Both the position numbers and the translations under genes were made by a program. Positions 1 to 63,880 of a DNA stretch of 64,000 nt are shown here, piece after piece. Each line of letters begins with the position of its first letter. Positions within the stretch are counted from its first letter, which is position 1. The notes below the pieces were generated by a model. It was not told the DNA's origin, made no database searches, and was given only the letters and a program-made list of their open reading frames with translations. Origin of the DNA: Saprospiraceae bacterium (GTDB lineage: Bacteria; Bacteroidota; Bacteroidia; Chitinophagales; Saprospiraceae); contig JAEUUP010000022.1 in assembly GCA_016787525.1 (NCBI GenBank), positions 30,718-94,717 of the forward strand, in the 5' to 3' direction.

Positions 1-374
1 ATATTTTGAATCGGTGCTGCTCCCACAGTACCTGGAATCAGCGACATATTTTCAACACCTCCTAAATTGTTCTCAATTGCCCACAAAACGAATTCATGCC
101 ATACAACACCACCGCCTATTTCGACAATTGTCCCCCCCTCAGTATCTTGTATTATCTCAATGCCCTTAATGCCATTTTTTAGAAATAACATATCATAAAA
201 TTCATTCAAAAATAACACATTCGACCCGCCACCTAAAAGAAACAAAGGAAGGGTGTTTTGAGACAAAACTTGGCACACGTCCTCAATGGATTGTACTTCA
301 ACAAAAGTCGAGCAATGCGCTTCGATGCCAAATGTATTGTAATTTTTTAAATTGAAATTTTTATGAAACTGCAT
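1..374 (-). CDS. murB: UDP-N-acetylenolpyruvoylglucosamine reductase, N-terminal part (window edge)
   Basis: Reading the minus strand from an ATG at 374-372 gives about 124 residues with the MurB FAD-binding pattern: an N-terminal NTFGI, then LFLLGGGSNVLF, GGGVVWHEFV, and GGVENMSLIPGTVGAAPIQN as the frame reaches the window edge. MurB reduces UDP-GlcNAc-enolpyruvate to UDP-MurNAc in the cytoplasm, the step after MurA. The C-terminal part lies outside the window. It sits 115 bp downstream of murA on the same strand, which puts two consecutive peptidoglycan steps together. A copy of the decamer at 135-144 encodes its TEG. Identification is firm; only the 3' end is missing. Confidence 0.93.
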   Translation of the reverse strand, partial: MQFHKNFNLKNYNTFGIEAHCSTFVEVQSIEDVCQVLSQNTLPLFLLGGGSNVLFLNEFYDMLFLKNGIKGIEIIQDTEGGTIVEIGGGVVWHEFVLWAIENNLGGVENMSLIPGTVGAAPIQN

Positions 375-397
375 GAAGGTTAATTGTTATTGGTCGT

Positions 398-480
398 TTA
401 TTACTCGTTAGTGGTTATTCGTTATTTATAATTTGTCAGGACTAATCTATCAATAACGAATAACTACTAACGAGTAGTAA
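398..480. repeat. Long intergenic inverted repeat between murA and murB
   Basis: Arms 398-426 and 452-480 are complementary over 29 bp with two mismatches, separated by 25 bp. The arms are built from words such as ACTCGTTA and TTATTCGTTATT. Similar words form a hairpin at 32212-32262. It may be a transcript-processing or attenuating hairpin in the murA-murB unit, or a copy of a small dispersed repeat. Confidence 0.7.
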
Positions 481-489
481 ATAATTAAA

Positions 490-1818
490 TCATTGAAAAT
501 CAATTTTTTGTATTTTCAAACCCATAGCTGTCAAGCGTGGGATGATGTCACCATAGCCACGTTCAATCATCGGCACACCCCTCAGTATAGTCGTGCCTTT
601 TGCCACAGAAGCGGCTATGACATATGCCAAACCTGCCCGCAAATCTGGAATAACTAAAGGTTCCTCAACGGCTGTCAGAGGCGTTGCACCACTGATAATG
701 GCTGAGTGTTCGTGTCCTTTGCCCGTAAAACGGCAGGGTAGGCTGCCGAGGCAATGCGTCGTCAACTGCACTTCTGCGCCCAGTTTTTTCAATGCTTTCA
801 GATACCCAAAACGATTTTCATATACAGTTTCGTGAATGACAGAAACGCCTTCGGCTTGTGTCAAAAATACCGCAAAGGGCTGCTGCCAATCCGTCGAAAA
901 TCCGGGCCAAACATCGGTTTCTAAGTGAATAGCTTGTGGTTTTTTCGCTCTAAAAAAGCGAATAGAATCGTAGTCCAATAACTCGAAACCACCACCTGCT
1001 TGGCGATAACTCGACAAGAAATTGCCCAAAGTTTCAGGTCTAATACCATGCACCGTGATTGACCCATCAACAGCAACAGCCATCGAAGCCCAAGAAGCTG
1101 TTTCGATGCGGTCGCCCAGAATATTCATTGTGCAACCTGTCAGTTCCTTCACCCCTTCAACACGGAATTGACGACCTGAGTCCGTAAAAATAACAGCACC
1201 CATAGCCCGTAACATCGTCACCAACTCCATGATTTCGGGTTCAATCGCTACATTTTCGATGATGGATGTACCCTCCGCCAGCACAGCCAAGAACAAACAT
1301 GTCTCAGTTGCTCCAACAGATGGGTATTTCAGATGAAAATGTGAGCCTTTCAATCGGCGCGACTTCTGTGCGATATACCCCTCAGTACCTTCGATGATTT
1401 TTGCCCCAAAATCTTGAATCGCATCAAGGTGAAAATCAACGCCTCGTGCGCCTATGATGCAACCACCCAACATCGGTACACTCACCTCATCGAAACGGTG
1501 CAAAAGTGCGCCCAACATGAGAATAGGCATTCGATTCGCTCCTGAATGTGGTTGTCGCACATGCGCATCGGTTGCAGTGGTTGGGTCAATGGTCATCATT
1601 TTGGCTTCTTTATCCCAATGAATCGTTACGCCGAGCGAGCGCAACATATCCACCGTGATTTCGACATCGCCAATCGGAGGCACATTGGTCAAAGTAGTGG
1701 CAGAAGAGCCAAGGAGGGTAGCAATCATCGCTTTAGTAGCGAAGTTTTTTGCACCATAACATGTAATTTCGCCGTGTAACGGATTGCCACCGACGATTTG
1801 ATAAGCTGTATTGGACAT
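490..1818 (-). CDS. murA: UDP-N-acetylglucosamine 1-carboxyvinyltransferase
   Basis: 442 residues, close to the usual family length of about 420-440. MurA transfers enolpyruvate from PEP to UDP-GlcNAc, the first committed step of peptidoglycan synthesis, in the cytoplasm. The substrate-binding Lys-Asn pair is at residues 24-25 (GAKN), and the catalytic loop GGCIIGARGVDFH carries the active-site cysteine at residue 120, the residue fosfomycin alkylates in this family. The repeated beta/alpha units of the EPSP-synthase fold are visible throughout. It is followed by murB after a long inverted repeat. Two decamer copies (578-587 and 1378-1387) lie inside, read as LRG and TEG. Confidence 0.95.
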   Translation of the reverse strand: MSNTAYQIVGGNPLHGEITCYGAKNFATKAMIATLLGSSATTLTNVPPIGDVEITVDMLRSLGVTIHWDKEAKMMTIDPTTATDAHVRQPHSGANRMPILMLGALLHRFDEVSVPMLGGCIIGARGVDFHLDAIQDFGAKIIEGTEGYIAQKSRRLKGSHFHLKYPSVGATETCLFLAVLAEGTSIIENVAIEPEIMELVTMLRAMGAVIFTDSGRQFRVEGVKELTGCTMNILGDRIETASWASMAVAVDGSITVHGIRPETLGNFLSSYRQAGGGFELLDYDSIRFFRAKKPQAIHLETDVWPGFSTDWQQPFAVFLTQAEGVSVIHETVYENRFGYLKALKKLGAEVQLTTHCLGSLPCRFTGKGHEHSAIISGATPLTAVEEPLVIPDLRAGLAYVIAASVAKGTTILRGVPMIERGYGDIIPRLTAMGLKIQKIDFQ

Positions 1819-1864
1819 AAAAGGGTTTGTAGTTGTTTGAAATTGAAGCGTAAGGTAGCGTATT

Positions 1865-2499: not shown

Positions 2500-5400
2500 C
2501 TATGCTTTTATCTCCGCACATAACTTGTCAACCTCTTCGCCCACATTTTTCCACCAATAGTACGACCATACAGAAACCACTCGCACATTCAGTCGCTCCA
2601 AATCTTGTAACATACGGCGTTCCCAATCGGCATTGAAATAAGTGGCATCGGTACTCAATCGCCCGTCAATGCGGACGACAACCGCAGCATCTTCCGCGTT
2701 ATCGGGTAAAATGACCAACGGAAAGATTTGATTTTCAATAACAAAATTGGTTTTCATGTGCTTAGGCTCGATTTTATCGGACAAGGCAGCGATGATTTCA
2801 TGCACAAAAATGGACGATTTAGGCTCTTTCGTTTTTACATACAATTTATTCAACTGACTGAAAATGGCTTCATACTGAGGGGTATTGTCGAGCGATAAAT
2901 TCTCCGCCAATAGTATCAAATTGGACATCAAAAACGGCATTTCATAATCTCGACTTTGAGCCGAAGCTTCCAAGAGTTCGCGTGAAATAGCGTTTATCCA
3001 GTACAATTTTTGAGTAAAACAGTTCAATAATTGCCGAAATTCTCGTTTCGGGAAACTCATTTTATCAAAATCAGGATACGTGCCACTCACTATGAGAATG
3101 TCGAATTGCAAGCCTGCCAGTTCATCTATATTCAGAATTGTCAACCCATTACGTTGAATATGCTCAATTTTTTCCCAACCCCACAGTGTTTTTTGTACCA
3201 CATTCAGCAAGGTCATATTAATGGTATTCCTCTGCTGACGTGTCATGGTCACAATGGCAATGCGTGGATAGGTATTGAACGGCGTTGCCGAAATTTCTTT
3301 CAACAACTCAATAATTTCAGTGATTTCAGCTTCATTGGTTCTGATTTTTTCAGAATATAAATTCTTTACATGACGAACTTCTACACTTTGTTTAGTCGCC
3401 ACTTGTCGGAATGGAATGTCCAAATTAGGGTAAAAAACAGCCTGATTGATGCGCCTAGTCGTTTCGCTGGCGGCACGGTGAATGTAGTTGAGCCTGACAT
3501 AAGCGGCCTCTTTTTCTTTGAGTTTAGCTGCCAGAGATTGGGGGACAGTCGTATCTTCAGCTAATGCAACGACCCCCTCAGTATTTCGCAAAATCGGCAC
3601 AACTTGTTCTGAATCAATATCTTGAGCATTGTCGAATACCACCAAATCAAACTCTTTGCCTTCTCCTTCAATGATTTGTGTAGCAACTTGTGGTGTCAAT
3701 AAAAGCACGGGATAGACCTCGGTCAGAGTGTGAATAGTGTTTTTGAGAATATCTTTCAAGTATTGTGTCTTCGCTAATTTCAGATTTTTAGAGTTAAAAA
3801 ACAGCTTATAACCTTCTGGATTTTTTTCCTTCATTTCGCGGATAGCGACTTTTTTTCGGTCATTCCACATCGAAGCAATTTGTTTAGGAATATGCAAACG
3901 AAGACGATCTTCTACTTCATTCATATTGTTCATCAAAATATCATTGTCGAGTGTATCTGTTTGATAATGAACAACTAAGGTATTGTGAAAATACCAACTG
4001 TCGAATGCCGCTGCCCAATTGTCAGGCTTCACTTTTGTCAGTGCTGTAATCAACCGATGACCATTTTCGGGCAATGAAACCCAAAATTTTTGCCATGCGT
4101 AGAAGTGGTCGAAATCGCGCATATTCAACTGCGTTTCTTCCAATTTTTCGATGGTTTCTTCGATGAACAACATACGTTTGGGCAGTGTCAACATCTTGTG
4201 TCCGAGTGGGTCAGCATAAATTTTCGCTTCGTTGATGGCTGTTAAAAGATTATCGAGATCGGTTTCGAGTTGCAAAATATCTTCCGCCAATGGTTTATCA
4301 AAATGGTTCGCTGTTTTTGAATTCAGTCGCTGCAACTCTTCTTGAACTGTATTGGGCAAAGCTTTGCGCCATCCCCTCAGTAAAGATTCGAAAGTTTCAA
4401 GATTGAGTTTGAGTTTATCAAAATCTTTTCTGTCCGAACCTTTCAAAAAATCGTGGATAAAATGGCGGCGCGAATCATATGTTTTCACCAATTCGTCGTA
4501 ACGATTGCTTGCTTCTTCTTTTGCGGATAAAATATTTTTTGAACGACCGCTGAAAAGAGAGCTGGCATATAAACCGCTGACTCTGAATACGTTAGAGGAT
4601 TTGAAAGCGTCGCCATATTGAAACTCATAGTCTGAATTGGCTTCTTTCAAATGCCGCAATTGACCCCGTTGTTCGATATAGTAGCTTTCGTAATAATTCA
4701 TCAATTTTTGGGCATAAGCATCATAAACAGCGATGTATCGGTGGTGCAAAGCCTTGAATTTCTCGATAAATTCAGATAGTTTTTTCAACAGTTCGTCGCG
4801 ATTTGTCGCACTTTTTTCGGCGGCAAATGCCTGTGGATGAATATTACTGAGGGGGTGCTTGAGTGTATTGACATCATTGTAGAGTCGTTCACTGGTTTCA
4901 ATTTCAGCGCGTAAACGCTCGTATTCTTCTTTTGTGAATGTATAATCCGATGCGTTGATATGATTTGCAAGCAGTTCTCGACCTGCATTCTTTTGGCTCG
5001 CAAGATAATGACCGACCACCTCGGCAAAGTTTTCATCGCCAAAAACGGGCTGATGCAATGTGTGATGCGTTTCATCGGACTTTGCTAAATACCGACGAGC
5101 TTGTTTGAGCGCAATTTTAAAGTCTTCTTCTCCTTTGAAATCCACTGTGCGGCTTGTGGTTTCCTTGCGAATCACATCTAAAAGTAAGTTTTTGTCGTGA
5201 TACATATCTTTCAAAAGGAAAGTCAAATTGCCAATGCCAAGGTTGACAAAGGCATTTTGAATTTGCATCAAACTGGCAACATCATGGGCAACAACGGCTG
5301 TTTTTTGCCCATTCGACAGGGCATTGAGCAAAATATTGGCTGCCAAATGCGTTTTCCCTGTGCCATGACCACCTTCCACAAGCGTCATTTTGTTGCGCAA

Positions 5401-6174
5401 AACAGTCCGCAAAGCTGTGCGTTGATAGAGGTCTTCGGGCAATACAGTGAACTCGTGCGTATGTTCAGCTGTCCATGTAAAATTTTGAAAGTCAATACTT
5501 TCTGCGTCTTTTTCGCCGATTGCACCTTCTGGATGTTGGAACAAACCCACTGCACCGCACCAACCAATATGCCCTTTTGCTGCCAACTCATCCGCATATC
5601 GAGGCGAAGGGCATTGAATGATTGCCGCATTACTTTGCAGCGTAAATTTGAGTTTGGCTTCCAAATCTTTCAAAAAAGCTTGGAAACCGATATATGTAAA
5701 GGGTGGATTTTGAATATATTGTGCCAAATGCTCACCCAAATCAAGTCCTTGTTTTTCCTTAAAATGAGTCACAAGGTATTCGTTGACAGCCACGCTACCA
5801 TTTTCGTCATAAGACAGCACCCACGAATCGCGCCGAGTCGGATGAGGTTTGATGTTTAGGTACCAAATAAATAACGGTGCGGCGACTGTCTCCCCCTCAG
5901 TATTTTTGTCGAAAACAAAGGGGAAACCAAAGCCAAACGGGTGCTGACCACGGGTTTTTTGTATATTTTTTGTCTCAAAATAGAATTGGCGAAACTGCTC
6001 AGAATTGTGAAATTCAGCGTGAATATCCGTCTCAAATGCCGTTTGATTGTAGAATAACTCCGTCCATTTGGTCATTTGAGGATGTATGCCATTGAAAACA
6101 GCAAACATATCAAGTTTGTCGTCGCCGAGTGGGAGCGCGTTGAGATATGCTTTTGAACTCTTATTGTGTCTCAT
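2500..6174 (-). CDS. Large SF1 (DNA2/NAM7-like) helicase-like protein with degenerate motifs
   Basis: 1224 residues. A Walker A motif GGHGTGKTH is at about 268-276, within a typical QRTALRTVLRNKMTLVEGG context. A Walker B-like VVFDNAQDI is at about 845, with Asn replacing the Glu of DEAQ. The following LAEDTTVPQS stands where GDxxQLPP is usual. A late LNIDELAGLQFDILIVSG segment resembles motif V, but the motif VI arginines (normally VALTRAK-like) are not recognisable in LLNCFTQKLYWI. The middle (residues 330-700) is rich in predicted helix and probably coiled. The C-terminus (RIDGRLSTD ... WERRMLQDLERLNVRVVSVWSYYWW) resembles the DUF559-like tail of DUF4011-type helicases. ATP binding is likely; unwinding is doubtful. 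The role is unknown; defence or repair is possible. Confidence 0.7.
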   Translation of the reverse strand: MRHNKSSKAYLNALPLGDDKLDMFAVFNGIHPQMTKWTELFYNQTAFETDIHAEFHNSEQFRQFYFETKNIQKTRGQHPFGFGFPFVFDKNTEGETVAAPLFIWYLNIKPHPTRRDSWVLSYDENGSVAVNEYLVTHFKEKQGLDLGEHLAQYIQNPPFTYIGFQAFLKDLEAKLKFTLQSNAAIIQCPSPRYADELAAKGHIGWCGAVGLFQHPEGAIGEKDAESIDFQNFTWTAEHTHEFTVLPEDLYQRTALRTVLRNKMTLVEGGHGTGKTHLAANILLNALSNGQKTAVVAHDVASLMQIQNAFVNLGIGNLTFLLKDMYHDKNLLLDVIRKETTSRTVDFKGEEDFKIALKQARRYLAKSDETHHTLHQPVFGDENFAEVVGHYLASQKNAGRELLANHINASDYTFTKEEYERLRAEIETSERLYNDVNTLKHPLSNIHPQAFAAEKSATNRDELLKKLSEFIEKFKALHHRYIAVYDAYAQKLMNYYESYYIEQRGQLRHLKEANSDYEFQYGDAFKSSNVFRVSGLYASSLFSGRSKNILSAKEEASNRYDELVKTYDSRRHFIHDFLKGSDRKDFDKLKLNLETFESLLRGWRKALPNTVQEELQRLNSKTANHFDKPLAEDILQLETDLDNLLTAINEAKIYADPLGHKMLTLPKRMLFIEETIEKLEETQLNMRDFDHFYAWQKFWVSLPENGHRLITALTKVKPDNWAAAFDSWYFHNTLVVHYQTDTLDNDILMNNMNEVEDRLRLHIPKQIASMWNDRKKVAIREMKEKNPEGYKLFFNSKNLKLAKTQYLKDILKNTIHTLTEVYPVLLLTPQVATQIIEGEGKEFDLVVFDNAQDIDSEQVVPILRNTEGVVALAEDTTVPQSLAAKLKEKEAAYVRLNYIHRAASETTRRINQAVFYPNLDIPFRQVATKQSVEVRHVKNLYSEKIRTNEAEITEIIELLKEISATPFNTYPRIAIVTMTRQQRNTINMTLLNVVQKTLWGWEKIEHIQRNGLTILNIDELAGLQFDILIVSGTYPDFDKMSFPKREFRQLLNCFTQKLYWINAISRELLEASAQSRDYEMPFLMSNLILLAENLSLDNTPQYEAIFSQLNKLYVKTKEPKSSIFVHEIIAALSDKIEPKHMKTNFVIENQIFPLVILPDNAEDAAVVVRIDGRLSTDATYFNADWERRMLQDLERLNVRVVSVWSYYWWKNVGEEVDKLCAEIKA

Positions 6175-6349: not shown

Positions 6350-6946
6350 ATGAATCATTTAGCACACTTCTTCCTCTCAGGCGACGACGAGGATTTGGCG
6401 ATTGGCAACTTTGTGGCAGATTTTATTACAAATAAAGAATTACCCCAATTTACTGAGGGGGTGCAACGAGGCATCATTCTGCATCGTGAGATAGACGCAT
6501 TCACAGATGCACATCCGATTGTGAAACAGAGTACGAAGCGTCTGCACCCATTTCACCACAAATATTCTCCTGTGATTGTGGATATTTATTATGATTTTTT
6601 ATTGGCTAAAAACTGGCAAAATTATAGCCTAACCGACCCCTCAGTATGGAATGATAGTTTGAGAGATTTTACAAATAAGATGTATAGAATATTGACAGAT
6701 AGGCATATAGAGTTGCCAGAAAGATTGAAAACTCGCTTGCCTCGTATGATTGCCGACGATTGGTTGATGAAATATACAACTTACAAAGGCTTGCATGGTG
6801 CGTTTTTACGGATTGAAAAGGCGGCTGCTTTCCCAGGTAATTTTGGCAATGCTGCGAAGCATTTGGAGCAGTTTTTAGAAGCATTTGATGCAGAATTCAA
6901 TCAATTTTTTCCTGAATTACAAAAGCACGTAGCAAGTAAAGTTTGA
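6350..6946 (+). CDS. Acyl carrier protein phosphodiesterase (AcpH/DUF479 family)
   Basis: 198 residues, full length for the family. AcpH removes the 4'-phosphopantetheine group from holo-ACP. The family signature is present: MNHLAHFFLS at the start, GNFVADFI at about 19-26, LHREIDAFTDAHPIV, and VDIYYDFLLAKNW. The Asp and His residues of the metal-binding HD-like core lie in these segments. It is divergently transcribed from the helicase-like gene and ends in its own terminator. Two decamer copies (6451-6460, 6637-6646) are read as TEG and PSV. The family assignment is firm. The exact substrate rests on the E. coli homologue. Confidence 0.85.
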   Translation: MNHLAHFFLSGDDEDLAIGNFVADFITNKELPQFTEGVQRGIILHREIDAFTDAHPIVKQSTKRLHPFHHKYSPVIVDIYYDFLLAKNWQNYSLTDPSVWNDSLRDFTNKMYRILTDRHIELPERLKTRLPRMIADDWLMKYTTYKGLHGAFLRIEKAAAFPGNFGNAAKHLEQFLEAFDAEFNQFFPELQKHVASKV

Positions 6947-6971
6947 TTTTGAACCCTCAAAACCCCTCAGT

Positions 6972-7021
6972 AAAATAGCCTTGTAGAGGACTTAAATTGT
7001 CCTGTGCAAGGCTATTTTTTT
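6972..7021 (+). terminator. Rho-independent terminator after AcpH
   Basis: AAAATAGCCTTG (6972-6983) pairs with CAAGGCTATTTT (from 7007), with an inner AGGAC/GTCCT stem and a following T tract. A decamer copy (6963-6972) abuts the 5' side of the stem. Confidence 0.85.
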
Positions 7022-7038: not shown

Positions 7039-8925
7039 TTAACGTTCCGCACGTCGCTCCAAATCAGCTCGTTTGAGTGTAATCAAATGCCCAATAGGTT
7101 GTCCATTGCGGTAGTTCTGAACGCGTAAAGTGATAGGACCATCGGGTAATTCGACAGATTGAGTGAATTTTGAGCAATATTTATCGGGCATAGCATCGTC
7201 AATTGTGTAGTAGGTGTCAATACCCTTGATTTCATTTTCCAAAGTAAGCCACATTTTGCCATCTTTCATTTTAGTTTTCACAACCGCATCGTAAACGGCA
7301 CGGCTGGCGTTGATTTCGGCGACATCAGCTCTTTCAAAATGATTTTCCATGCGTTTGGCGAAATCATCCCAATTTTTTGCCGATTTTTGAGACCAATAGA
7401 CCTCCGACAATGCCCACGCACGTGGGTAAGTCATGTACTGCACGTAGCGAAAAGTAGGCGTTTGCTCTGTCCACAGATTGCCTTGACCGCCTAAAATGTA
7501 TTTGGCATCTATACCATCAGGTACAGGCTCGAAACTGTAACTTTTGCTCACACGCAGACCCGCATAAATCGGTGGGTCAACAGTCATTTCGCCTTGATTG
7601 TAGTCTAAATAGGCATAAGTAGTTGGAGTCATCACCACTTCATGCCCTTCTTTTGCGGCTTGAATACCGCCTTTTGTGCCACGCCAGCTCATCACAGCCG
7701 CCGTTGGCGAAATGCCACCTTCCAAGATTTCGTCCCAACCGATGAGTTTTTTGCCTTTGGCTTGCAATATTTTTTCGACACGACCCATAAAATAGCCTTG
7801 TAAATCTTCGACATGGTGGATTTTCAACTTGCTCATCAAAGCTTGGCAGCCTTCGTCTTGCGCCCAATAACCTTTATAACATTCGTCGCCACCGACATGG
7901 ATATAAGGGTGCGGGAACAATTGCGCGACCTCCGTAAAAACTTTGTCGAGAAACGTATAAACTTCTTCGTTTGAAGGGTTTAAGGTGTTGTCAACCAGCA
8001 TTTTAAATGTGCCATTGCCATACCACTCTGAGAATTTATGACCACAGCTGACCATTGTATTGGGGTTTTTGGTGCAACTCAATTCTGGATAAGCGGCAAC
8101 GGCTGCCATGCTGTGACCAGGAACATCAATCTCTGGCAAAATTGCCACATTGCGTTCTTGTGCGTAGGCAATCACTTCTTTGATGTCTTCGTGCGTGTAG
8201 AAACCTCCAACAGGCGTAGGTTCGCCAATTTTGGGTGCTTCACGGTCGCCGAAATGACCCGCACGTTTCACGCGCCATGCACCAATCGAAGTGAGTTTGG
8301 GTAGCGATTTGATTTCGATGCGCCAGCCTTCATCATCGGTCAAGTGCCAGTGCAAAGTGTTGTATTTGAGGCGAGCGATTTGGTCAATATAGGTTTTGAC
8401 TTCTTCTTTCGTAAAAAAGTGGCGACTGACATCGAACATAATGCCACGCCATGCAAAACGCGGATAATCTTTGACTTTTACTGAGGGGATAACCCAATTG
8501 CCTTTGGTCGCAGTTTTGCTTTCAATTTCTTTGGGCAATAGTTGCAAAAGCGTTTGCATACCATAGAAAAGTCCTGCTGTTTGGTTGGCAGAAATCATGA
8601 CACCTTTAGGCGTTGACTCCAGAATATAGCCTTCTTTGCCGATTTCGGCATTGGGCGAAGCGTTCAAATTGAGTTGTATTGCACCTAATTTCCCTTGTTG
8701 AGCTTTGAGAGAAAATCCTGTGGGTGCATTTAATTTTTGAATCAACATATCAGCGACCTTTTGGCTTTCGGCTTTGTCGTAGCTGATAGTTGAGGCAGAA
8801 GTTAGGGTGTAAGAACCGGTGGTTGTTTTGATTTCGACAGGCTGTGGAATCAAATTTATAGCATTATTTTGTGCTTTTAGCATCGTCATAGCTGTTAAAA
8901 ACAAGAACAGAGACAGTTTTTTCAT
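7039..8925 (-). CDS. Beta-N-acetylhexosaminidase, GH20, exported
   Basis: 628 residues with an N-terminal signal peptide (MKKLSLFLFLTAMTMLKA, cleavage near 18). The GH20b domain occupies about 25-155 and the GH20 catalytic barrel about 155-510. The signature HVGGDECYKGYW carries the catalytic Asp-Glu pair at D347/E348, and WHLTDDEGWRIEI and the tryptophan-rich barrel strands are present. The enzyme releases terminal GlcNAc/GalNAc from chitin oligomers, glycans or peptidoglycan fragments in the periplasm or outside the cell. About 100 C-terminal residues form a small beta domain. There is no type IX sorting domain. It appears to be monocistronic. One decamer copy (8479-8488) encodes PSV. Confidence 0.93.
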   Translation of the reverse strand: MKKLSLFLFLTAMTMLKAQNNAINLIPQPVEIKTTTGSYTLTSASTISYDKAESQKVADMLIQKLNAPTGFSLKAQQGKLGAIQLNLNASPNAEIGKEGYILESTPKGVMISANQTAGLFYGMQTLLQLLPKEIESKTATKGNWVIPSVKVKDYPRFAWRGIMFDVSRHFFTKEEVKTYIDQIARLKYNTLHWHLTDDEGWRIEIKSLPKLTSIGAWRVKRAGHFGDREAPKIGEPTPVGGFYTHEDIKEVIAYAQERNVAILPEIDVPGHSMAAVAAYPELSCTKNPNTMVSCGHKFSEWYGNGTFKMLVDNTLNPSNEEVYTFLDKVFTEVAQLFPHPYIHVGGDECYKGYWAQDEGCQALMSKLKIHHVEDLQGYFMGRVEKILQAKGKKLIGWDEILEGGISPTAAVMSWRGTKGGIQAAKEGHEVVMTPTTYAYLDYNQGEMTVDPPIYAGLRVSKSYSFEPVPDGIDAKYILGGQGNLWTEQTPTFRYVQYMTYPRAWALSEVYWSQKSAKNWDDFAKRMENHFERADVAEINASRAVYDAVVKTKMKDGKMWLTLENEIKGIDTYYTIDDAMPDKYCSKFTQSVELPDGPITLRVQNYRNGQPIGHLITLKRADLERRAER

Positions 8926-9019: not shown

Positions 9020-9050
9020 GGTGAAAAATACCCCCTCAGTATTTTTCACC
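9020..9050. terminator. Bidirectional terminator with the decamer in its loop
   Basis: GGTGAAAAATAC (9020-9031) and GTATTTTTCACC (9039-9050) pair perfectly over 12 bp. The 7-nt loop CCCCTCA plus the first stem bases GTA make up the decamer (9032-9041). T tracts on both strands (TTTTT at 9051; six A at 9014-9019) make it usable in either direction. It mainly ends the gene at 9085-9477. Confidence 0.9.
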
Positions 9051-9477: not shown

Positions 9478-9756
9478 TTTTTAAAATTTATATTGTTAAA
9501 CAATCAGGTGAAATATCTCGTGTTGCAATAAAGACTTTACTGAGGGGTATTGGTAACGGAATTTAGTGTCATTTTTACATTAAGCTTACAAAGCTATATA
9601 AACGCATATTTTGGACGAATAGTTCGCGCGTGGAAAGGATAAAATTAAGAGAATGAGATGCGACAAATTTTATAACTTTGCAGCGACTTCGATAGAAAAT
9701 CGAAGCTTTGGAAAAGCAAAATGCAATATATTCTTTGGTCTGTAAAACGATGAAGC

Positions 9757-10227: not shown

Positions 10228-11031
10228 ATGAAACCTGAAATTGATATTCATAAAGAGCCAGAACTGGCTCTTAACTCCTTACTCGATGAAATAAATAAGC
10301 AGAGGCGATTGAATAGCGAGCTGCAGTCGGAGTTGAGAACGATGCGGACACGCGAAATTCGTTTGAACAAAAATTCTGAAATATTAAAGTCGGATAATAA
10401 TCGCCTCAAACAAGATTTAACCATTCTGGAGCAAAAACTAAGAGAACTCGAAATTCAATTAACACTCCCTGAAAGTGACCGTACATTTGTTCCCGCTCGT
10501 CCAATTGAACCTTTTCCTAGAAAACCTTTTTATAAAAAAATTAATTGGGCGTATGTTATTGTGCCGATTATCGTCATTGGTGCTATCGGCGTATTCAAAT
10601 GGCAGTCGAATAAAAACATTGCGGCTCAAACAGCGGCTGTCGCTGCAACGGCAACTAATACTGAGGGGGGGGCATCTGCTGCACCACAACCAGAGCCATC
10701 TGGTGTCACAACGCCTGTCGCCACGAGTCCTACACCCATTGCGAATAATAATACACCACAAACCATAGAAGAGGGATATTTGATGATTCAAAATCCATTG
10801 GACAATGAAGGTATGGTGCGTGTCATGGATGGTTATACACAAAAAGCTCGTGTTTTGGCATGGATTAATCCAGGTGAAAAATATCGAATCAGAGCGCAAA
10901 GTCCGACTAAAATGCGTCGTACTTATGTGAAAGATGGCAAAAACGTTACTTTTGAAGACTATTTCTACAAGATTAGCGATAAAGAGCAATGGGTTTTTGG
11001 TTATTTTACCACTAAGAAACTTGCACAATAA
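10228..11031 (+). CDS. Coiled-coil, single-pass membrane protein with SH3-like C-terminal region
   Basis: 267 residues. Residues 15-85 are a heptad-rich coiled coil, about 107-123 are one membrane segment (WAYVIVPIIVIGAIGVF), and 125-175 are an Ala/Thr/Pro-rich low-complexity linker. The C-terminal 90 residues (YLMIQNPLDNEGMVRVMDGY ... KWVFGYFTTKKL-like end) resemble a bacterial SH3-like beta domain. The layout suggests a cytoplasmic coiled coil with an envelope-facing domain binding wall or periplasmic partners. I do not know the function. A decamer copy (10659-10668) in the linker encodes TEG followed by Gly. The gene is followed by a bidirectional terminator. Confidence 0.75.
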   Translation: MKPEIDIHKEPELALNSLLDEINKQRRLNSELQSELRTMRTREIRLNKNSEILKSDNNRLKQDLTILEQKLRELEIQLTLPESDRTFVPARPIEPFPRKPFYKKINWAYVIVPIIVIGAIGVFKWQSNKNIAAQTAAVAATATNTEGGASAAPQPEPSGVTTPVATSPTPIANNNTPQTIEEGYLMIQNPLDNEGMVRVMDGYTQKARVLAWINPGEKYRIRAQSPTKMRRTYVKDGKNVTFEDYFYKISDKEQWVFGYFTTKKLAQ

Positions 11032-17510: not shown

Positions 17511-17543
17511 GCCGATATTGAGACCCCTCAGTATCGGCTTTTG
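17511..17543 (+). terminator. secDF terminator with the decamer in the loop
   Basis: GCCGATA (17511-17517) pairs with TATCGGC (17532-17538), followed by TTTTGTTTTT. The decamer (17524-17533) occupies the loop and the first bases of the descending arm. Confidence 0.88.
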
Positions 17544-53563: not shown

Positions 53564-53620
53564 GCTTTTATACTGAGGGGGTGCTTTTCGCCATGAAAAG
53601 CACCCCCTCAGTATAAAAGC
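53564..53620. repeat. Inverted pair of extended decamers forming a 26-bp-arm hairpin
   Basis: The left arm starts GCTTTTATACTGAGGGGGTG at 53564 and the right arm ends with its exact complement at 53620. The arms of 26 bp meet across the 5-nt loop GCCAT. Each arm holds one full decamer (53571-53580 and 53604-53613). The outer sequence AAAAGC...GCTTTT is shared with single copies at 54893-54917 and 57102-57131. Confidence 0.95.
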
Positions 53621-54892: not shown

Positions 54893-54917
54893 AAAAAGCA
54901 CCCCTCAGTATAAAAGC
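54893..54917. repeat. Single extended decamer copy
   Basis: AAAAAGCACCCCTCAGTATA plus AAAGC matches the right arm of the 53564-53620 hairpin except for one C. It lies between the DUF1016 gene and a broken nuclease gene. Confidence 0.8.
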
Positions 54918-55410: not shown

Positions 55411-55411
55411 A

Positions 55412-57094: not shown

Positions 57095-57133
57095 CCGCCC
57101 CAAAATAGCTTTTATACTGAGGGGGGCTTTTCG
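57095..57133. repeat. Extended decamer copy bracketing the accessory block
   Basis: CCGCCCCAAAATAGCTTTTA followed by TACTGAGGGGGGCTTTTCG matches 53553-53590 apart from a 2-bp insertion and one base. The match extends well beyond the decamer on both sides, unlike ordinary copies elsewhere. Confidence 0.85.
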
Positions 57134-58290: not shown

Positions 58291-58621
58291 CATACCATAA
58301 GAAGGGAACGCAGTGATATACTGAGGCTTACCGACCTTACATATCAATTACAGCAAAAGTGTTTGGCACTCCTTCGTAAGTAGATCTCTGCCCCCTCCGT
58401 TTAGCTCCTCGGTGCATGACCATACAAGCTAAATGCACCTTGAGACACTCTCATCGCGCCAACTACAAGCCACAACAAAAGGACAAATCTTCTGTTTTAT
58501 CAAAACAAAATGGAAAAATACTGAGGGGGTTAATGAATTGAGTAGGCTTTTCCTATTTTTGCGTTTTAAAAGGACTTTTTGAGAAGTAGGTGACAAAATC
58601 CTTGAATCCTAACCACGAAAT
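58291..58621. other. Gene-free stretch before the carboxylase gene
   Basis: No gene was found. It holds an eight-base partial motif (58319-58326), a small GGTGCAT/ATGCACC hairpin (about 58412-58438), a decamer (58519-58528) and a TATTTTTG -7-like box near 58554, which probably belongs to the promoter of the next gene. Confidence 0.45.
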
Positions 58622-60259
58622 ATGACAAAACAAGAATTAGAAGCTGCCCAAAATGAAGACGCAATGAAATTAGCCGTGTCGAATATCAATCGGCAATTGG
58701 CAAAAATCTACGAAGGCGGCGGCAAAAAACGCTTAGAAAAACAAAAAGCGGAGGGCAAAATGACGGCTCGTGAGCGCATTGCCTTCCTACTGGATGCAGG
58801 TGCGCCACAAATCGAAATCGGTGCTTTTGCAGGCTACGATATGTACAATGAGTATGGTGGTTGTCCTGCGGCAGGTGTGATTGTGGTCATCGGTTATATC
58901 AAAAAAAGGCAAGTCATTGTCGTTGCCAACGATGCGACAGTCAAGGCAGGCGCATGGTTTCCCATCACAGGCAAAAAAAATCTCCGCGCACAAGAAATAG
59001 CTATGGAAAACCGACTGCCCATCATCTACTTGGTGGACTCAGCAGGTGTTTTCCTCCCGATGCAAGACGAAATTTTTCCAGATAAAGAACATTTTGGGCG
59101 CATTTTCCGTAACAATGCCAAAATGAGTTCAATGGGGATTCCACAAATTGCCGCCATCATGGGCAGTTGTGTGGCGGGTGGTGCGTATCTGCCCATCATG
59201 TCCGACGAAGCCCTGATTGTGGATGGACAAGGCTCGGTTTTTTTAGCCGGTCCTTATTTGGTCAAAGCCGCCATTGGCGAAGATGCTGACCAAAAAGTTT
59301 TAGGCGGTGCCAAAACACACTCCGAAATCAGCGGCGTGACGGACTACAAAGTGCCAAACGACACCGTTTGCTTAGAAACCATCAAAAATTTGGTGGATAA
59401 ATTTGGAAAATTTGACAATGCAGGCTTTTCGAGAGAGCCATCAGCACCCCCTCAGTATAAACCCAAAGAATTGCTTGAAATTTTCCCTGCCGACAACCGC
59501 ACAAAACCTTACGACACCGTCGAAATACTGAAACGCATCGTTGATAATTCCGAATTGACACAATACAAAGAGGAATACGGCAAAACAATCGTCTGCGCCT
59601 ATGCCCGCATTGACGGCTGGGCAGTCGGAATAGTCGCCAATCAACGCACAGTGGTCAAAAATGGTAAAGGAGAGATGCAATTCGGCGGCGTTATTTACTC
59701 CGATTCTGCCGATAAAGCCACGCGTTTCATCATGAATTGCAACCAAAAGAAGATTCCACTCGTGTTTCTACACGATGTCACAGGTTTCATGGTCGGTACG
59801 CGTTCCGAACACGGCGGTATCATCAAAGACGGTGCAAAAATGGTGAATGCTGTTGCCAATTCGACCGTTCCGAAGTTCAGTATTGTCATCGGCAATTCGT
59901 ATGGGGCAGGCAATTACGCCATGTGTGGCAAAGCCTACGACCCTCGCTTAATCGTTGCTTGGCCTTCTGCTAAAATAGCCGTCATGGGTGGCGCACAAGC
60001 CGCAAAAGTGTTGATGCAAATCCAAACGTCTTCGATGAAAGCCAAAGGGCAAGTGCCAACGCAAGAAGAAGAGCAAAGCCTATACGACGAAATAAAGAGC
60101 CGTTACGACAATCAGACCACCCCTCAGTATGCAGCCGCCAGATTGTGGGTAGATGCCATCATTGACCCGCTCGAAACGCGAAAATGGATAAGCATGGGCA
60201 TCGAAGCCGCCAATAATGCACCCGTTGAGAAATTCAATGTCGGTGTCATTCAAACATAA
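58622..60259 (+). CDS. Acyl-CoA carboxylase carboxyltransferase subunit (methylcrotonoyl/propionyl type)
   Basis: 545 residues with crotonase-like N and C carboxyltransferase halves. Features: GGGKKRLEKQKAEGKMTARERI, oxyanion-forming GSCVAGGAYLPIMSDEALIV, DEIFPDKEHFGRIFRNNAKMS (typical of methylcrotonoyl-CoA carboxylase beta), DVTGFMVGTRSEHGGIIKDGAKM and GNSYGAGNYAMCGKAYDPR. It transfers a carboxyl group from carboxybiotin to an acyl-CoA. The biotin-carrying alpha subunit is not in the window. Two decamers (59448-59457, 60120-60129) encode PQY. The next gene follows after 15 bp. Confidence 0.92.
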   Translation: MTKQELEAAQNEDAMKLAVSNINRQLAKIYEGGGKKRLEKQKAEGKMTARERIAFLLDAGAPQIEIGAFAGYDMYNEYGGCPAAGVIVVIGYIKKRQVIVVANDATVKAGAWFPITGKKNLRAQEIAMENRLPIIYLVDSAGVFLPMQDEIFPDKEHFGRIFRNNAKMSSMGIPQIAAIMGSCVAGGAYLPIMSDEALIVDGQGSVFLAGPYLVKAAIGEDADQKVLGGAKTHSEISGVTDYKVPNDTVCLETIKNLVDKFGKFDNAGFSREPSAPPQYKPKELLEIFPADNRTKPYDTVEILKRIVDNSELTQYKEEYGKTIVCAYARIDGWAVGIVANQRTVVKNGKGEMQFGGVIYSDSADKATRFIMNCNQKKIPLVFLHDVTGFMVGTRSEHGGIIKDGAKMVNAVANSTVPKFSIVIGNSYGAGNYAMCGKAYDPRLIVAWPSAKIAVMGGAQAAKVLMQIQTSSMKAKGQVPTQEEEQSLYDEIKSRYDNQTTPQYAAARLWVDAIIDPLETRKWISMGIEAANNAPVEKFNVGVIQT

Positions 60260-60274: not shown

Positions 60275-62365
60275 ATGAAAGTTTATTATAGCCTTGAAGA
60301 TTTGCCCGCATTTCAGAACACAGTTGTTACAATTGGGTCATTTGACGGTGTTCATTGTGGACATCAACACATATTAGAGCGCGTTAAACAACTATCACAA
60401 AGCGTTGATAGTCAGTCAGTTGTTATTACATTCAATCCGCATCCTCGTTTGGTCGCACAACCCAACGATAAGTCTGTTGTATTGCTCAATTCGGTAGAAG
60501 AAAAGGTGGATTTATTGGAAAAATATGGGATTGATGTCGTCGTTGTTGTGCCTTTTACAAAGTCTTTTTCGGAACAAACGCCCGAAGCCTATATTGAAAA
60601 CTTCTTATACAAGCTATTTAAACCAACGTATATCGTTATTGGCTACGACCACCGTTTTGGGGCAAACAGGGTAGGAGATACCGACTTTTTGCGCAGCCTT
60701 TCCCCTAAATTTGGTTACGAAGTCATCGAAATTGAGAAACAAGTCATTGACGACATCGCCGTTTCTTCCACCAAAATCAGAAAAGCCATCGAAGCCACCG
60801 ACATCAAAACAGCTACTCGGCTTTTAGGTCACTATTTTAGCTTCACAGGCGAAGTCGTTAAAGGACAACAAATAGGCAGAGAGATTGGATTTCCGACTGC
60901 CAATTTGCAAGTGACAGAACGCAATAAACTTCTGCCACCACATGGTATTTATACCGTTTTAGTGCATTTGCCTGATGGAAAAGTCCGCCAAGGCATGATG
61001 TATCGAGGCGACAGACCCGTTTTGAAAGAACACGATAATATCACTATTGAAGTTAATATTTTTGATTTTAAAGACGATATTTATGGTCAGAAGATGAAAG
61101 TAGAGATAGTAGAATTCATCCGTCCTGACCGATATTTTGATAGTTTAGAATCTCTCGTCATTCAGTTAGCAGATGACGAAAGAGCCAGCCGAGAAATCTT
61201 GCAAGCTATTGAAAATCAAAAGATTCCACGTGTTGCCATCGTTATTTTAAATTGGAATACCCCTCAGTATTTGAAGCTGTTTTTGCCTTCGGTTTGCGGT
61301 TCAAGATATGGCAATTTCGATGTCATCGTTGCTGACAACGGCTCAACGGACAATAGTATAGAAACTGTCAGAGAACTCAATTTGGACGGCATTCCTGCTG
61401 CAATGGGTGTGGATAGAGTCAAAGTTGTTGAATTAAAAGAAAACTATGGCTTTGCAAAAGGCTATAATATGGCTTTAAAACACGAAAAACTCCGCCCACG
61501 ATCAAAAGATACGCCCAATGGTTACGACTATTACGTGCTACTAAATTCAGATTGTCGAACTTCACAAGGTTGGTTGACACCCATCATCTCAATGATGGAA
61601 AAGGATAGGGCAGTGGCAGCTGTACAACCTAAAGTATTGAGTTACAATAAGAAACGCAAGTTCGAGTATGCGGGTGCAGGTGGCGGTTGGCTGGATGCTT
61701 TGGGTTATCCATTCAGTCGCGGGCGTGTGTTCGACAATCTCGAAAAAGACCGCAAACAATATGATGACGAAGCCGAAATCTTTTGGGCTTCAGGTGCAGC
61801 TATGGTCGTTAGAGCCGATTTATGGCATCGTTTCGGTGGCTTCGACGAAGATTTTTGGGCGCACATGGAGGAAATAGATGTCTGTTGGCGTATGAAAAGA
61901 GCTGGATACAAGGTGATGGTACAACCCAAAGGCGTTGTTAGGCATGTTGGAGGCGGCACAATGGACTATCTCAGCCCACGAAAAACATATTTAAATTTTA
62001 GAAACAGCCTTTACACATTGTTAAAAAATGAACCCCTCAGTAAATTATTGTGGTTGATTCCGTTGCGATTGGTTTTAGACGGTGTTGCTGGTGTAAAATT
62101 TTTGTTTGACGGTCAACGCAAACATGTTTGGTCTATCATGAAAGCACATTTTAGTTTTTATGGCAATTTTTTCTATATGCTAAAAAAACGTCGTGAAACA
62201 GCTCAACTGATTGAAAAAGAACGCATTGCGCCTGAAAATCGTGCTGGCATACTGAGGGGGTCAATCGTTTGGCAGTATTATGTCAATAAAAAAACAACTT
62301 TTTCAGAAATCGTTTATGACAAAAAAGAGAAAATTGCAGACAACGAAAATGATGAAAATGAGTAA
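60275..62365 (+). CDS. RibF (riboflavin kinase/FAD synthetase) fused to a family 2 glycosyltransferase
   Basis: 696 residues in one uninterrupted frame. Residues 1-185 are the FMN adenylyltransferase domain (IGSFDGVHCGHQHIL, ITFNPHPR, VIGYDHRFG, VSSTKIR). Residues 186-315 are the riboflavin kinase domain (GEVVKGQQIGREIGFPTANL, HGIYTV). From about 325 begins a GT2 domain: VAIVILNWNTPQYLKLFLPSV, VIVADNGSTDNS, NYGFAKGYNMAL, LLNSDC, then FWASGAAMVVRADLW and GGFDEDFWAHMEEIDVCWR. The C-terminal 110 residues are basic with a hydrophobic helix (LLWLIPLRLVLDGVAGVKFLF). RibF makes FMN and FAD; the GT2 part resembles rhamnosyltransferases. Decamers: 61260-61269 (PQY, at the start of the GT domain), 62033-62042 and 62250-62259. 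Confidence 0.9.
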   Translation: MKVYYSLEDLPAFQNTVVTIGSFDGVHCGHQHILERVKQLSQSVDSQSVVITFNPHPRLVAQPNDKSVVLLNSVEEKVDLLEKYGIDVVVVVPFTKSFSEQTPEAYIENFLYKLFKPTYIVIGYDHRFGANRVGDTDFLRSLSPKFGYEVIEIEKQVIDDIAVSSTKIRKAIEATDIKTATRLLGHYFSFTGEVVKGQQIGREIGFPTANLQVTERNKLLPPHGIYTVLVHLPDGKVRQGMMYRGDRPVLKEHDNITIEVNIFDFKDDIYGQKMKVEIVEFIRPDRYFDSLESLVIQLADDERASREILQAIENQKIPRVAIVILNWNTPQYLKLFLPSVCGSRYGNFDVIVADNGSTDNSIETVRELNLDGIPAAMGVDRVKVVELKENYGFAKGYNMALKHEKLRPRSKDTPNGYDYYVLLNSDCRTSQGWLTPIISMMEKDRAVAAVQPKVLSYNKKRKFEYAGAGGGWLDALGYPFSRGRVFDNLEKDRKQYDDEAEIFWASGAAMVVRADLWHRFGGFDEDFWAHMEEIDVCWRMKRAGYKVMVQPKGVVRHVGGGTMDYLSPRKTYLNFRNSLYTLLKNEPLSKLLWLIPLRLVLDGVAGVKFLFDGQRKHVWSIMKAHFSFYGNFFYMLKKRRETAQLIEKERIAPENRAGILRGSIVWQYYVNKKTTFSEIVYDKKEKIADNENDENE

Positions 62366-62467
62366 AAACGCGAAAAACGCGTTAAAGTAATTAACATAAG
62401 GTAAATTATAGAAAAAAAACATAAACCATTGAAAATCAATAATTTAATTAAATAAGTTTGAAACAAA

Positions 62468-62797
62468 ATGAGAAAACCGATTGTCAAAAAACTAAGTATG
62501 AAAAAATACTATTCTTTCTATGTGGGTTTGCCAAAATCCTTAAAGTCTGAATGGGTTTTATTAGACGACAAAATACCTGCCTTTAATCCTTTTCAAGCTA
62601 TCGTTTTTCATTATTGGATAAGTCACAATAAAGATTTTGTACGTTGCCGTGTGCCGTCGTCCCTCAGTATTTCAAATTATTATCGAATGTTAGTAGAATT
62701 TGAACGTGTCGAACCTTCGCACAAAGGTTTTACGATTGCACAATTTCACCAAACACGGTTTATTTATTCACACGATTTCTTAAAAATGTTCAAATGA
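62468..62797 (+). CDS. Small hypothetical protein
   Basis: 109 residues, basic, aromatic-rich (KKYYSFYVGLPKSLKSEWVL, PFQAIVFHYWISHNKDFVRC, FTIAQFHQTRFIYSHDF). No signal peptide or known family. It precedes the methyltransferase by 138 bp, and the two may belong to the same acquired segment. A nine-base near-decamer (62661-62669) lies in the middle. Confidence 0.55.
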   Translation: MRKPIVKKLSMKKYYSFYVGLPKSLKSEWVLLDDKIPAFNPFQAIVFHYWISHNKDFVRCRVPSSLSISNYYRMLVEFERVEPSHKGFTIAQFHQTRFIYSHDFLKMFK

Positions 62798-62880
62798 AAG
62801 TGTGAATAAAATAAACTCAAATCGTACATATTTTTTACAAAGTGTGAACTTTTTAAACTTACTTTGCGTTTAAAAGTGTG
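62795..62880. repeat. Three direct AAAGTGTGAA repeats upstream of the methyltransferase
   Basis: Copies at 62795-62804, 62837-62846 and 62871-62880. The last begins 65 bp before the chosen methyltransferase ATG. An inverted relative (TTATTCACAC) lies just upstream. They could be operator sites, possibly for autoregulation. Confidence 0.55.
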
Positions 62881-62935
62881 AATGAGCTTTATTAACTCAT
62901 TCCTGATAACTCACATTTTAAAAAATAAGTACATT

Positions 62936-63880
62936 ATGCAAGTAGTTTTAAGTCTTTTTACGGGGATTGGAATGTTGGATATTGGTTTTAAAGAACTTGG
63001 TTTTTGTGTCGTGTCTGCTGGCGACACGATTTTAGGCGAACACCACGATATTAGAAAGTTCAAAGCTAAAAAGGGTGTCTTTGATGGTATTATTGCGGGG
63101 CCTCCGTGTCAAGATTTCAGCAAAGCCCGCCGAACCGCCCCAACGGGCGAAGGTTTAGAGTTATTAAACGAATTTTGCCGAATTGTTGAAGAAGCTAAAC
63201 CACGTTGGTTTATTATGGAAAATGTCCCAACTGTGCCAAATGTCAAAATTGATGATTATTTCGTACAACGGTTTGACCTAAACGCAAAAAATTGCGGGTC
63301 AATGCAAAACCGTAATCGTCACTTTCAATTTGGCTCATATACGTGTGACTTTGACAACGAATTGCCAACATTGATTTTAAATATAAAACGTGACCCGTCG
63401 CCCCCCTCAGTATCTCGATGCGTCACAGCAAGCGAAGGGAAGCAAAAAGACCGCCGCGACTTTGCGGACTTTTGCGAACTGCAAGGACTACCGCAAGACT
63501 TTGACCTACCCAATTTTAACCAATCGGCAAAATATCGCGCCGTCGGAAATGGTGTAAATGTGCTTGTGTCGCGCCGCATCGCCGAAGCCGTGAAAGTTGC
63601 AACCGAAGATAAAGAATACATAAAAGAGCATGAACTTACGATGTATGGGGACTTATGCGCCTGTGGTTGTGGTCGGCTCTTGACGGGTAGGCAAAAATCA
63701 GCTACGCCCAACTGTCGTAAAAGATTGGAAAAAAAGAGAAAGTTAGAAAAGTCTTTAAACTTGCCGTCAACTGTGCCGCCCGATGATGTTTTTAAACAAC
63801 GGATTGAAATAAATAGAACGGCAAGAGCTATTGAAAAAATTACTGAAAAGTATAAAAAAATGTACGAAAATGAGGATTAA
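62936..63880 (+). CDS. DNA (cytosine-5-)-methyltransferase
   Basis: 314 residues from the ATG at 62936, where the catalytic domain begins; an ATG at 62882 adds 18 non-conserved residues. Motif I is LSLFTGIGMLDIGF, motif IV GPPCQDFSKARR with the catalytic Cys, motif VI FIMENVP, motif VIII QNRNRHFQFG, and motif X AVGNGVNVLVSRRIAEAV. The target-recognition region between VIII and IX is short (about 70 residues). A C-terminal cysteine cluster (CACGCGRLLTGRQ, PNCRKRLEKK) looks like a small zinc ribbon. No restriction enzyme is visible beside it, so it may be an orphan or phage-type enzyme. Decamer 63403-63412 encodes PSV in the recognition region. Confidence 0.92.
   Translation: MQVVLSLFTGIGMLDIGFKELGFCVVSAGDTILGEHHDIRKFKAKKGVFDGIIAGPPCQDFSKARRTAPTGEGLELLNEFCRIVEEAKPRWFIMENVPTVPNVKIDDYFVQRFDLNAKNCGSMQNRNRHFQFGSYTCDFDNELPTLILNIKRDPSPPSVSRCVTASEGKQKDRRDFADFCELQGLPQDFDLPNFNQSAKYRAVGNGVNVLVSRRIAEAVKVATEDKEYIKEHELTMYGDLCACGCGRLLTGRQKSATPNCRKRLEKKRKLEKSLNLPSTVPPDDVFKQRIEINRTARAIEKITEKYKKMYENED

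Follow-up and report, generated by a model that had tools for sequence, protein, structure and literature searches.

A 64,000-nucleotide stretch of the genome of a Saprospiraceae bacterium (contig JAEUUP010000022.1, positions 30,718 to 94,717; the window in what follows) repeats one non-palindromic decamer, CCCCTCAGTA, about once per kilobase, which raises the question of what so iterated a word is for. The sequence features described below make the decamer a good candidate for a lineage-specific uptake signal sequence (USS) of the kind known from Pasteurellaceae, and this is probably what it is: a label that would let competent cells recognise DNA of their own kind and take it in. A broader proposal, which could as easily fail as hold, is that it represents a third independent invention of sequence-specific uptake, in Bacteroidota, with a non-pilin receptor, ComEC acting via a partner with four HHH domains, and a set of phages converted to the same dialect.

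The window contains 63 exact copies between positions 135 and 63412 (40 on the forward and 23 on the reverse strand), while dinucleotide shuffles give a chance level of 0.03, and seven copies carry one mismatch. An initial annotation of this DNA had described the word as highly iterated, with 62 exact copies and seven 9/10 matches; the iteration and the seven imperfect copies are borne out, and the exact count is one higher. Nor is the excess confined to the window, an outcome that the annotation had named as speaking against its proposal. The whole genome (7,267,541 bases, that is 7.27 Mb in 169 contigs, 98% complete) holds 6,920 exact copies, again about one per kb and divided evenly between the strands (3,463 and 3,457), compared with three (2 + 1) of the reversed word, taken as a control. 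Two samples of this genome were used for the remaining statistics: the first 1.096 Mb, with masked contig C25 left out and 1,063 exact copies, and a larger sample of 1.487 Mb with 1,448 exact sites, 1,446 of them with full flanks (two dropped). In the larger sample there is no orientation bias (725 versus 723), and mixed strands can also be read from the sequence of contig C6 between 37 and 98 kb. Near misses are scarce: 218 for all 30 one-mismatch words taken together, against the 1,446 exact copies, and about 39 of these are the share of chance (40 permuted words, mean 1.3). They lie mostly at the edges of the word, with 33 C>T changes at position 0 and 81 changes in all at position 9, and the core TCAGT (positions 4-8) holds 18 of the 218.

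The even spread described initially is also found, with the correction that the arrangement is more regular than random. In the 1.096-Mb sample the mean spacing is 1.0 kb and its coefficient of variation is 0.71, as compared with 0.99 ± 0.03 for random placement; the variance-to-mean ratio in 5-kb bins is 0.36, and none of the 134 bins is empty. Both short gaps (below 200 bp; 92 versus 255 expected) and long ones (above 3 kb; 27 versus 72 expected) are depleted, and the longest gap is 4,806 bp. Close neighbours are avoided in either orientation, and the pairs less than 40 bp apart in the 1.487-Mb sample are all inverted (15, with no tandem pair), their stems running in most cases past the word itself. 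Single intergenic copies tend toward stop codons and lie within inverted repeats (stem of at least 7) in 13.8% of cases versus 5.2% in the null (n = 261), while coding copies do so in 2.3% versus 2.7% (n = 778). These hairpin pairs and intergenic inverted repeats near stops resemble the terminator habit of USS and of the DNA uptake sequences (DUS) of Neisseriaceae. A consensus terminator scan around the only close pair of the window (53564..53620) did not report the inverted repeat located there.

Genes were delimited with a simple purpose-made caller of open reading frames (ORFs), which gave 744 genes and 80% coding DNA in the 1.096-Mb sample. Here 778 copies fall in genes (0.89 per kb), 282 in intergenic DNA (1.29 per kb) and three on edges, and convergent gaps are the richest (1.96 per kb versus 1.40 and 1.39 in the other gap types). 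The same type of placement in the window, with our own caller, assigns 44 copies to ORFs and 19 to the DNA separating them, two of the latter (35305 and 63403) falling in long ORFs that the caller left out. Coding copies are nearly equally sense (406) and antisense (372) and use five of the six reading frames, the sixth of which would give a stop; from these two features we infer that the signal works as DNA rather than as RNA. The tetrapeptides most often encoded by the word are NTEG, TPSV, ILRG, DPSV and DTEG. Genes in the lowest GC octile contain 0.58 copies per kb, compared with 0.87-1.07 in the others, as expected if foreign DNA gains the word slowly, although a C-rich word may simply be harder to make in AT-rich genes.

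The origin of the copies was followed with a gap test modelled on the one for USS, in which 24% of alignments were gapped in the segment, mostly outside the core (PMC1626085). The query set was 724 ORFs with 1,195 copies (at least 120 amino acids, taken from all six frames with shadow ORFs kept), searched against 550 kb of relatives; for each ORF and locus the best match was used, at E ≤ 1e-15, and sites near alignment ends were dropped. Random positions in the same alignments served as control. Among the 177 site-homologue pairs scored (109 sites), 148 alignments (84%; control 89%) are ungapped within the word. In repeats of contig C33, a copy stands opposite an ungapped non-copy four substitutions apart. 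Likewise, the portal genes of two phages that are about 70% identical have one copy in common despite differing neighbours, while a second copy occurs in just one of the phages, the alignment being ungapped across the word. Judged from these alignments, copies arise by base substitution and not by insertion. Ungapped gain or loss of copies is seen in paralogues and phages, and the long flanking homology that, according to the initial annotation, would mark transposed repeats is not.

The same annotation had found no conserved longer context, which is correct as regards a shared transposed flank, but the word does have a flank of its own. In the 1.096-Mb sample, position -1 is C or A (59/37%) and position +1 is T or A (59/24%); on the 5' side there is an A-rich stretch at -8..-5, and on the 3' side the AT content oscillates with a period of 10.55 bp, with peaks at about +20, +31 and +42 and troughs at +16, +26 and +36, the AA/TT content ranging from 10% to 45%. 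Near-miss copies with changes at tolerated positions show the same AT pattern, slightly weaker (phase score 0.125 versus 0.168; random 0.002). The 3' amplitude is 0.104, as compared with at most 0.024 among 129 sampled 5-mers and 0.009-0.040 among 15 chosen control words, the highest of which, CTCAGTA outside exact copies (0.040, n = 166), probably includes decayed copies. Since the 3' amplitude exceeds that of the control words and the 5' amplitude (0.034) lies inside their range (up to 0.040), the 3' side is the special part of the flank, as in the Pasteurellaceae USS. An AT/GC periodicity of 10.55-10.65 bp extends on both sides beyond 100 bp and is roughly mirror-symmetric (correlation up to 0.78). 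We considered interpreting the flank as gyrase- or nucleosome-like but set the idea aside, given a weak AA/TT period of about 11 bp throughout this genome and same-genus DNA, and given that only the 3' side is clearly above the control words. The strength of that general period is 0.0050-0.0075 in the 1.487-Mb sample, in genome G046 (L154-L156) and in L066, and 0.0013-0.0040 in the other groups of Bacteroidota examined.

The word is also carried by phages. Five scans of IMG/VR with patterns containing it led to 205 viral loci (one fetched by position), of which 172 have one copy, 17 have two and 16 have three or more. The last group comprises nine contigs and eight distinct phages, two contigs sharing 7.4 kb at 99.96%. 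All eight are identified as phage by PHROGs matches (portal, terminase, sheath, tape-measure, tail-spike or endolysin proteins), two of them through weak matches only: a portal match in 3300022748_000105 (E 3e-5) and a tape-measure match in 3300048573_000410 (E 4e-5). Densities in the stretches examined are mostly 0.4-1.0 per kb, with one stretch at 0.21 and another, of 1.5 kb, at 2.0. They can be uneven: parts of 3300048573_000410 range between 0.84 and 0.21, and L302 has 0.21. The only one of the eight that is clearly of a temperate type, a Mu-like phage of 26,484 bases, has 25 copies (0.94 per kb) and no reversed copy. Together, 87 distinct phage copies share with those of the genome both the -1/+1 preferences and the 3' AT swing. 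As a yardstick, the Hin USS occurs 17 times each in HP1, HP2 and Aaphi23 (0.53, 0.54 and 0.40 per kb) and the Apl USS six times in PHL101 (0.17 per kb); phages that lysogenize Pasteurellaceae are described as accumulating USS, in contrast to big phages that are likely lytic (PMC6776037). The objection that carriage by phages speaks against uptake was dropped in view of the densities in HP1, HP2 and Aaphi23 and of the same source. Comparison of L209, an 11.9-kb part of the Mu-like phage, with this genome gave three matches, of only 40-52 query bases, among the 40 candidates scored out of 326. Two phage genes have unusual domain content: L209:1110-2429 (+) encodes a Mu F-like head protein with a C-terminal ADP-ribosyltransferase-like domain, and L260:10225-11631 (+) has ParB-like and DNA methyltransferase matches.

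Set beside known systems, the word shares with USS and DUS the hallmarks of density, strand equality, spacing, scarcity of near misses, non-coding excess, inverted pairs and origin by substitution. The proposal of the initial annotation, a motif of the DUS/USS type peculiar to this lineage, has passed every sequence test that could be run, and the word is still to be called a candidate. The Pasteurellaceae USS (Hin AAGTGCGGT, Apl ACAAGCGGT) is likewise found about once per kb, with a strong consensus, no strand bias, regular spacing, inverted pairs, a non-coding excess and a substitution origin (PMC1626085, PMC6776037). It is carried by temperate phages (PMC6776037), the word here being found in phage contigs with no identified host, and it is followed by two AT-rich 3' segments at roughly helical spacing (PMC1626085), as compared with three detectable 3' AT peaks here. 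The present word differs in that it is unrelated in sequence, belongs to another phylum, comes without pilus genes that could be found, and is abundant in one species among those searched, not in a whole family. The Neisseriaceae DUS (GCCGTCTGAA) resembles it in its ten-base core, its density of about one per kb and its presence both in genes and as close inverted pairs, but is described as having no flanking motif (PMC1626085). Within Bacteroidota, Riemerella columbina prefers its own DNA in competition, although a k-mer search of its genome yielded only A-rich 7-10-mers, the top 9-mers at 0.5-0.6 per kb, and no sharp word such as the present one (PMC7965970).

Three other explanations have to be weighed against an uptake signal. 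Footprints or insertions of a small mobile element are extremely improbable: perfect copies do far exceed one-mismatch copies, as in young transposons, but the copies share no flank beyond the weak preferences, they use every frame except the one containing a stop, and the ungapped substitutions in paralogues and in the phage portal gene, together with the 84% of homologue alignments ungapped in the word, largely refute this idea. A site for an abundant DNA-wrapping protein, such as gyrase or a sequence-specific nucleoid protein, would be needed about once per kb and hence in the chromosome and its resident phages alike. The two-sided, mirror-symmetric periodicity and the spacing that is regular but blind to orientation point in this direction, and E. 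coli gyrase sites are flanked on both sides by a GC signal with a period of 10.75 bp, covering about 130 bp (PMC6379681). The gyrase motif is, however, two-sided, extensive and degenerate (PMC6379681), whereas the core here is rigid and only the 3' flank rises clearly above control words in a genome that has an 11-bp AA/TT period everywhere. The scarcity of near misses is unlike intracellular binding sites, an argument already made for USS (PMC1626085), and a site for such a protein sits poorly with the absence of the word from 357 relatives. This explanation is unlikely.

Slightly less likely still is a self-mark read inside the cell, either Chi-like or as a password protecting DNA against a nuclease or defence system, so that phages would have to carry it to survive. 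Phage densities of mostly 0.4-1.0 per kb are what this would give, but they fit uptake as well, because temperate phages of USS hosts also carry USS (PMC6776037). Chi, KOPS and HIP1 are, like the present word, oligomers iterated in one lineage. Of these, HIP1 is palindromic, and Chi and KOPS work in a single orientation, usually with a skew that follows replication. The decamer, in contrast, is equal on both strands, avoids close neighbours in either orientation and shows no correlation of its orientation with GC skew (r = -0.16, p = 0.21, 66 windows of 20 kb; the replication origin is not mapped).

As an uptake signal, the word would act as follows. A surface or periplasmic receptor would bind the core and bend the DNA via the phased AT segments; the DNA would then pass to ComEC, perhaps helped by a ComEA-like protein with four HHH domains encoded next to it, with DprA and RecA then integrating the DNA into the chromosome by recombination. 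Fragments bearing the word would enter more often, and recombination would in this way spread and repair copies (molecular drive), which predicts that perfect copies outnumber near misses, that there is about one copy per typical fragment and that copies build up gradually in resident prophages. ComEC is present at C7:138523-139329, with an adjoining ORF of 402 amino acids that has four HHH_3 domains and is ComEA-like, and DprA is also present in the genome. Of the genes that the initial annotation had proposed to look for, comEC, a comEA-like gene and dprA are thus found, and those for a pilus ATPase and prepilin are not. Known USS and DUS depend on type IV pili, and the pilin ComP is the receptor for DUS. 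As the search for type IV pilus genes found none here, a pilin of the ComP or ComN type is an improbable receptor, and the word would probably be read by a non-pilin one. Transformation of Riemerella anatipestifer needs ComEC, DprA, ComF, RecA and four proteins of unknown role, one of them predicted to be periplasmic and to have an HHH domain (PMC8459023). From this species and from R. columbina, at least some Bacteroidota transform by a non-classical machine, which would fit the lack of pilus genes here.

Several observations weigh against an uptake signal. USS and DUS are family-wide, while this word is abundant in a single genome among those searched: none of 357 relatives (149 of the family and 208 further genomes) has more than 14 copies, and the only same-genus genome among them has three. 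In this 98%-complete genome, the T2SSE ATPase family PF00437 (PilB/PilT-type) has no match above the cut-off and four below it, and N_methyl prepilin PF07963 has no match. The competence genes that are present do not explain the word, because relatives without it have them too: in a set of 20 genomes that includes this one, ComEC is found in 19, HHH_3 in 20 and DprA in 18, and ComEC and HHH_3 lie within about 1 kb on one contig in eight of the 19 with ComEC. Riemerella-type outer-membrane factors, sought by DUF5689 only, gave two nuclease-type proteins in this genome, neither of them like the Riemerella transformation protein RS04920. In the gap test, gaps within the word are slightly in excess (29 of 177, 16% versus 11% in the control), as are gaps within three residues of it (55 of 177, 31% versus 23%). 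Since there is this slight excess and identity at word-coded residues is 26% versus 37% at control residues, we read the copies as sitting at variable positions. Furthermore, the flank periodicity is partly general to this genome and to same-genus DNA, and the phage contigs, for none of which a host was identified, were retrieved by patterns that contain the word. Finally, neighbouring copies have the same orientation in 785 cases and the opposite one in 628 (1.487 Mb), although strand totals are equal.

The two DUF5689 proteins are encoded at L188:244-2490 (-) and L189:8414-11428 (-); one is PLD-like and the other of the endonuclease/exonuclease/phosphatase type, and each carries DUF5689 together with a type IX sorting tail. 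DUF5689 is also found in a Riemerella transformation protein (PMC8459023).

With respect to other dialects, no comparable word was found in 80 named loci of relatives (4.6-23 kb), save a palindromic one in L141, nor in 20 stretches from 18 genomes of the family (four of them below 7 kb, two of these only N). L141 (Microscillaceae bacterium Prado074, 20.7 kb) has the iterated word TGATAATCA, with 21 copies in 19 bins of 300 bp where 1.3 are expected, and is also high in TGATTATCAA; being palindromic, this word is more like HIP1 than an uptake word. That the decamer is absent from the 357 relatives points to a specificity that is recent or changes rapidly, and how such a system originates may thus be accessible to study.

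The initial annotation knew of no described uptake sequence in Bacteroidota, and none was found in the literature searched, most subscription journals and all preprints lying outside it; within that literature, the decamer would be the first uptake signal for this phylum that we could find. Papers containing its letters look unrelated by title (for one strand among the matches listed, for the other all of them). A paper of 2006 states that no uptake sequences were known beyond Pasteurellaceae and Neisseriaceae (PMC1626085), and known or predicted receptors of uptake sequences are pilins (PMC12616744). If the decamer is such a signal, a third case in another phylum and without pilus genes would mean that transformation can acquire self-recognition through a receptor of another type. 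The word could also serve as a bait that makes the non-classical DNA entry route of Bacteroidota tractable, and it would be a marker that may link phages to their hosts in metagenomes.

Table 1. Exact copies of the decamer in the window and their placement by our own ORF caller
Feature	Position	Strand	Placement
Decamer copy	135..144	+	in ORF ending at 374(-)
Decamer copy	578..587	+	in ORF 490-1818(-), EPSP synthase family
Decamer copy	1378..1387	+	in ORF 490-1818(-), EPSP synthase family
Decamer copy	2873..2882	-	in ORF 2500-6174(-)
Decamer copy	3574..3583	+	in ORF 2500-6174(-)
Decamer copy	4373..4382	+	in ORF 2500-6174(-)
Decamer copy	4845..4854	-	in ORF 2500-6174(-)
Decamer copy	5893..5902	+	in ORF 2500-6174(-)
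Decamer copy	6451..6460	-	in ORF 6350-6946(+)
Decamer copy	6637..6646	+	in ORF 6350-6946(+)
Decamer copy	6963..6972	+	intergenic, past ORF 6350-6946
Decamer copy	8479..8488	-	in ORF 7039-8925(-), GH20
Decamer copy	9032..9041	+	intergenic, between arms of short inverted repeat
Decamer copy	9538..9547	-	intergenic
Decamer copy	10659..10668	-	in ORF 10228-11031(+)
Decamer copy	12187..12196	+	in ORF 11182-13098(-), peptidase S49
Decamer copy	13344..13353	+	in ORF 13204-13953(+)
Decamer copy	14433..14442	-	intergenic
Decamer copy	17524..17533	+	intergenic, past SecDF ORF 14470-17481, within inverted repeat
Decamer copy	18084..18093	-	intergenic
Decamer copy	18633..18642	+	in ORF 18096-19493(-), PNTB
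Decamer copy	20466..20475	+	in ORF 20046-20942(-)
Decamer copy	21131..21140	-	in ORF 21102-22427(+)
Decamer copy	21471..21480	+	in ORF 21102-22427(+)
Decamer copy	22249..22258	-	in ORF 21102-22427(+)
Decamer copy	22596..22605	+	in ORF 22440-24842(+)
Decamer copy	25193..25202	-	in ORF 24885-25826(+)
Decamer copy	25358..25367	-	in ORF 24885-25826(+)
Decamer copy	26285..26294	-	in ORF 25842-26732(+)
Decamer copy	27472..27481	+	in ORF 27359-27763(+)
Decamer copy	28806..28815	+	intergenic
Decamer copy	30189..30198	+	intergenic
Decamer copy	30740..30749	-	in ORF 30208-31425(+)
Decamer copy	31509..31518	+	in ORF 31422-32195(-)
Decamer copy	33032..33041	+	in ORF 32269-34221(-)
Decamer copy	34151..34160	+	in ORF 32269-34221(-)
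Decamer copy	35305..35314	+	intergenic by own caller, yet inside long ORF 35104-36177
Decamer copy	36887..36896	+	in ORF 36182-36937(-)
Decamer copy	37810..37819	+	in ORF 37021-38178(-)
Decamer copy	38560..38569	+	in ORF 38320-39102(-)
Decamer copy	39217..39226	-	intergenic
Decamer copy	41246..41255	+	in ORF 41175-42743(+)
Decamer copy	41672..41681	-	in ORF 41175-42743(+)
Decamer copy	42443..42452	+	in ORF 41175-42743(+)
Decamer copy	43262..43271	+	intergenic, directly past ORF 42755-43252
Decamer copy	44130..44139	+	intergenic, directly past ORF 43338-44111
Decamer copy	45867..45876	+	in ORF 45130-46335(+)
Decamer copy	46662..46671	-	intergenic
Decamer copy	49188..49197	+	in ORF 49047-52220(+)
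Decamer copy	49395..49404	+	in ORF 49047-52220(+)
Decamer copy	50314..50323	-	in ORF 49047-52220(+)
Decamer copy	52103..52112	-	in ORF 49047-52220(+)
Decamer copy, left arm of inverted pair	53571..53580	-	
Decamer copy, right arm of inverted pair	53604..53613	+	
Perfect inverted repeat, two 26-base arms, 5-base loop, one copy per arm	53564..53620		sole close pair of the window
Decamer copy	54901..54910	+	intergenic
Decamer copy	57115..57124	-	intergenic
Decamer copy	58519..58528	-	intergenic
Decamer copy	59448..59457	+	in ORF 58622-60259(+)
Decamer copy	60120..60129	+	in ORF 58622-60259(+)
Decamer copy	61260..61269	+	in ORF 60275-62365(+)
Decamer copy	62033..62042	+	in ORF 60275-62365(+)
Decamer copy	62250..62259	-	in ORF 60275-62365(+)
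Decamer copy	63403..63412	+	intergenic by own caller, yet inside long ORF 62882-63880

Two genes of the window may be mentioned in addition. The closest named matches of its SecDF protein are metagenome-assembled genomes labelled 'Chitinophagales' and 'Saprospiraceae', at a best identity of 59%, in a search that may omit records close to this genome; a Saprospiraceae-like bacterium is likely on this basis. ORF 2500-6174(-), with five copies of the word, encodes 1,224 amino acids that give weak helicase-like matches only (DEAD, ResIII).

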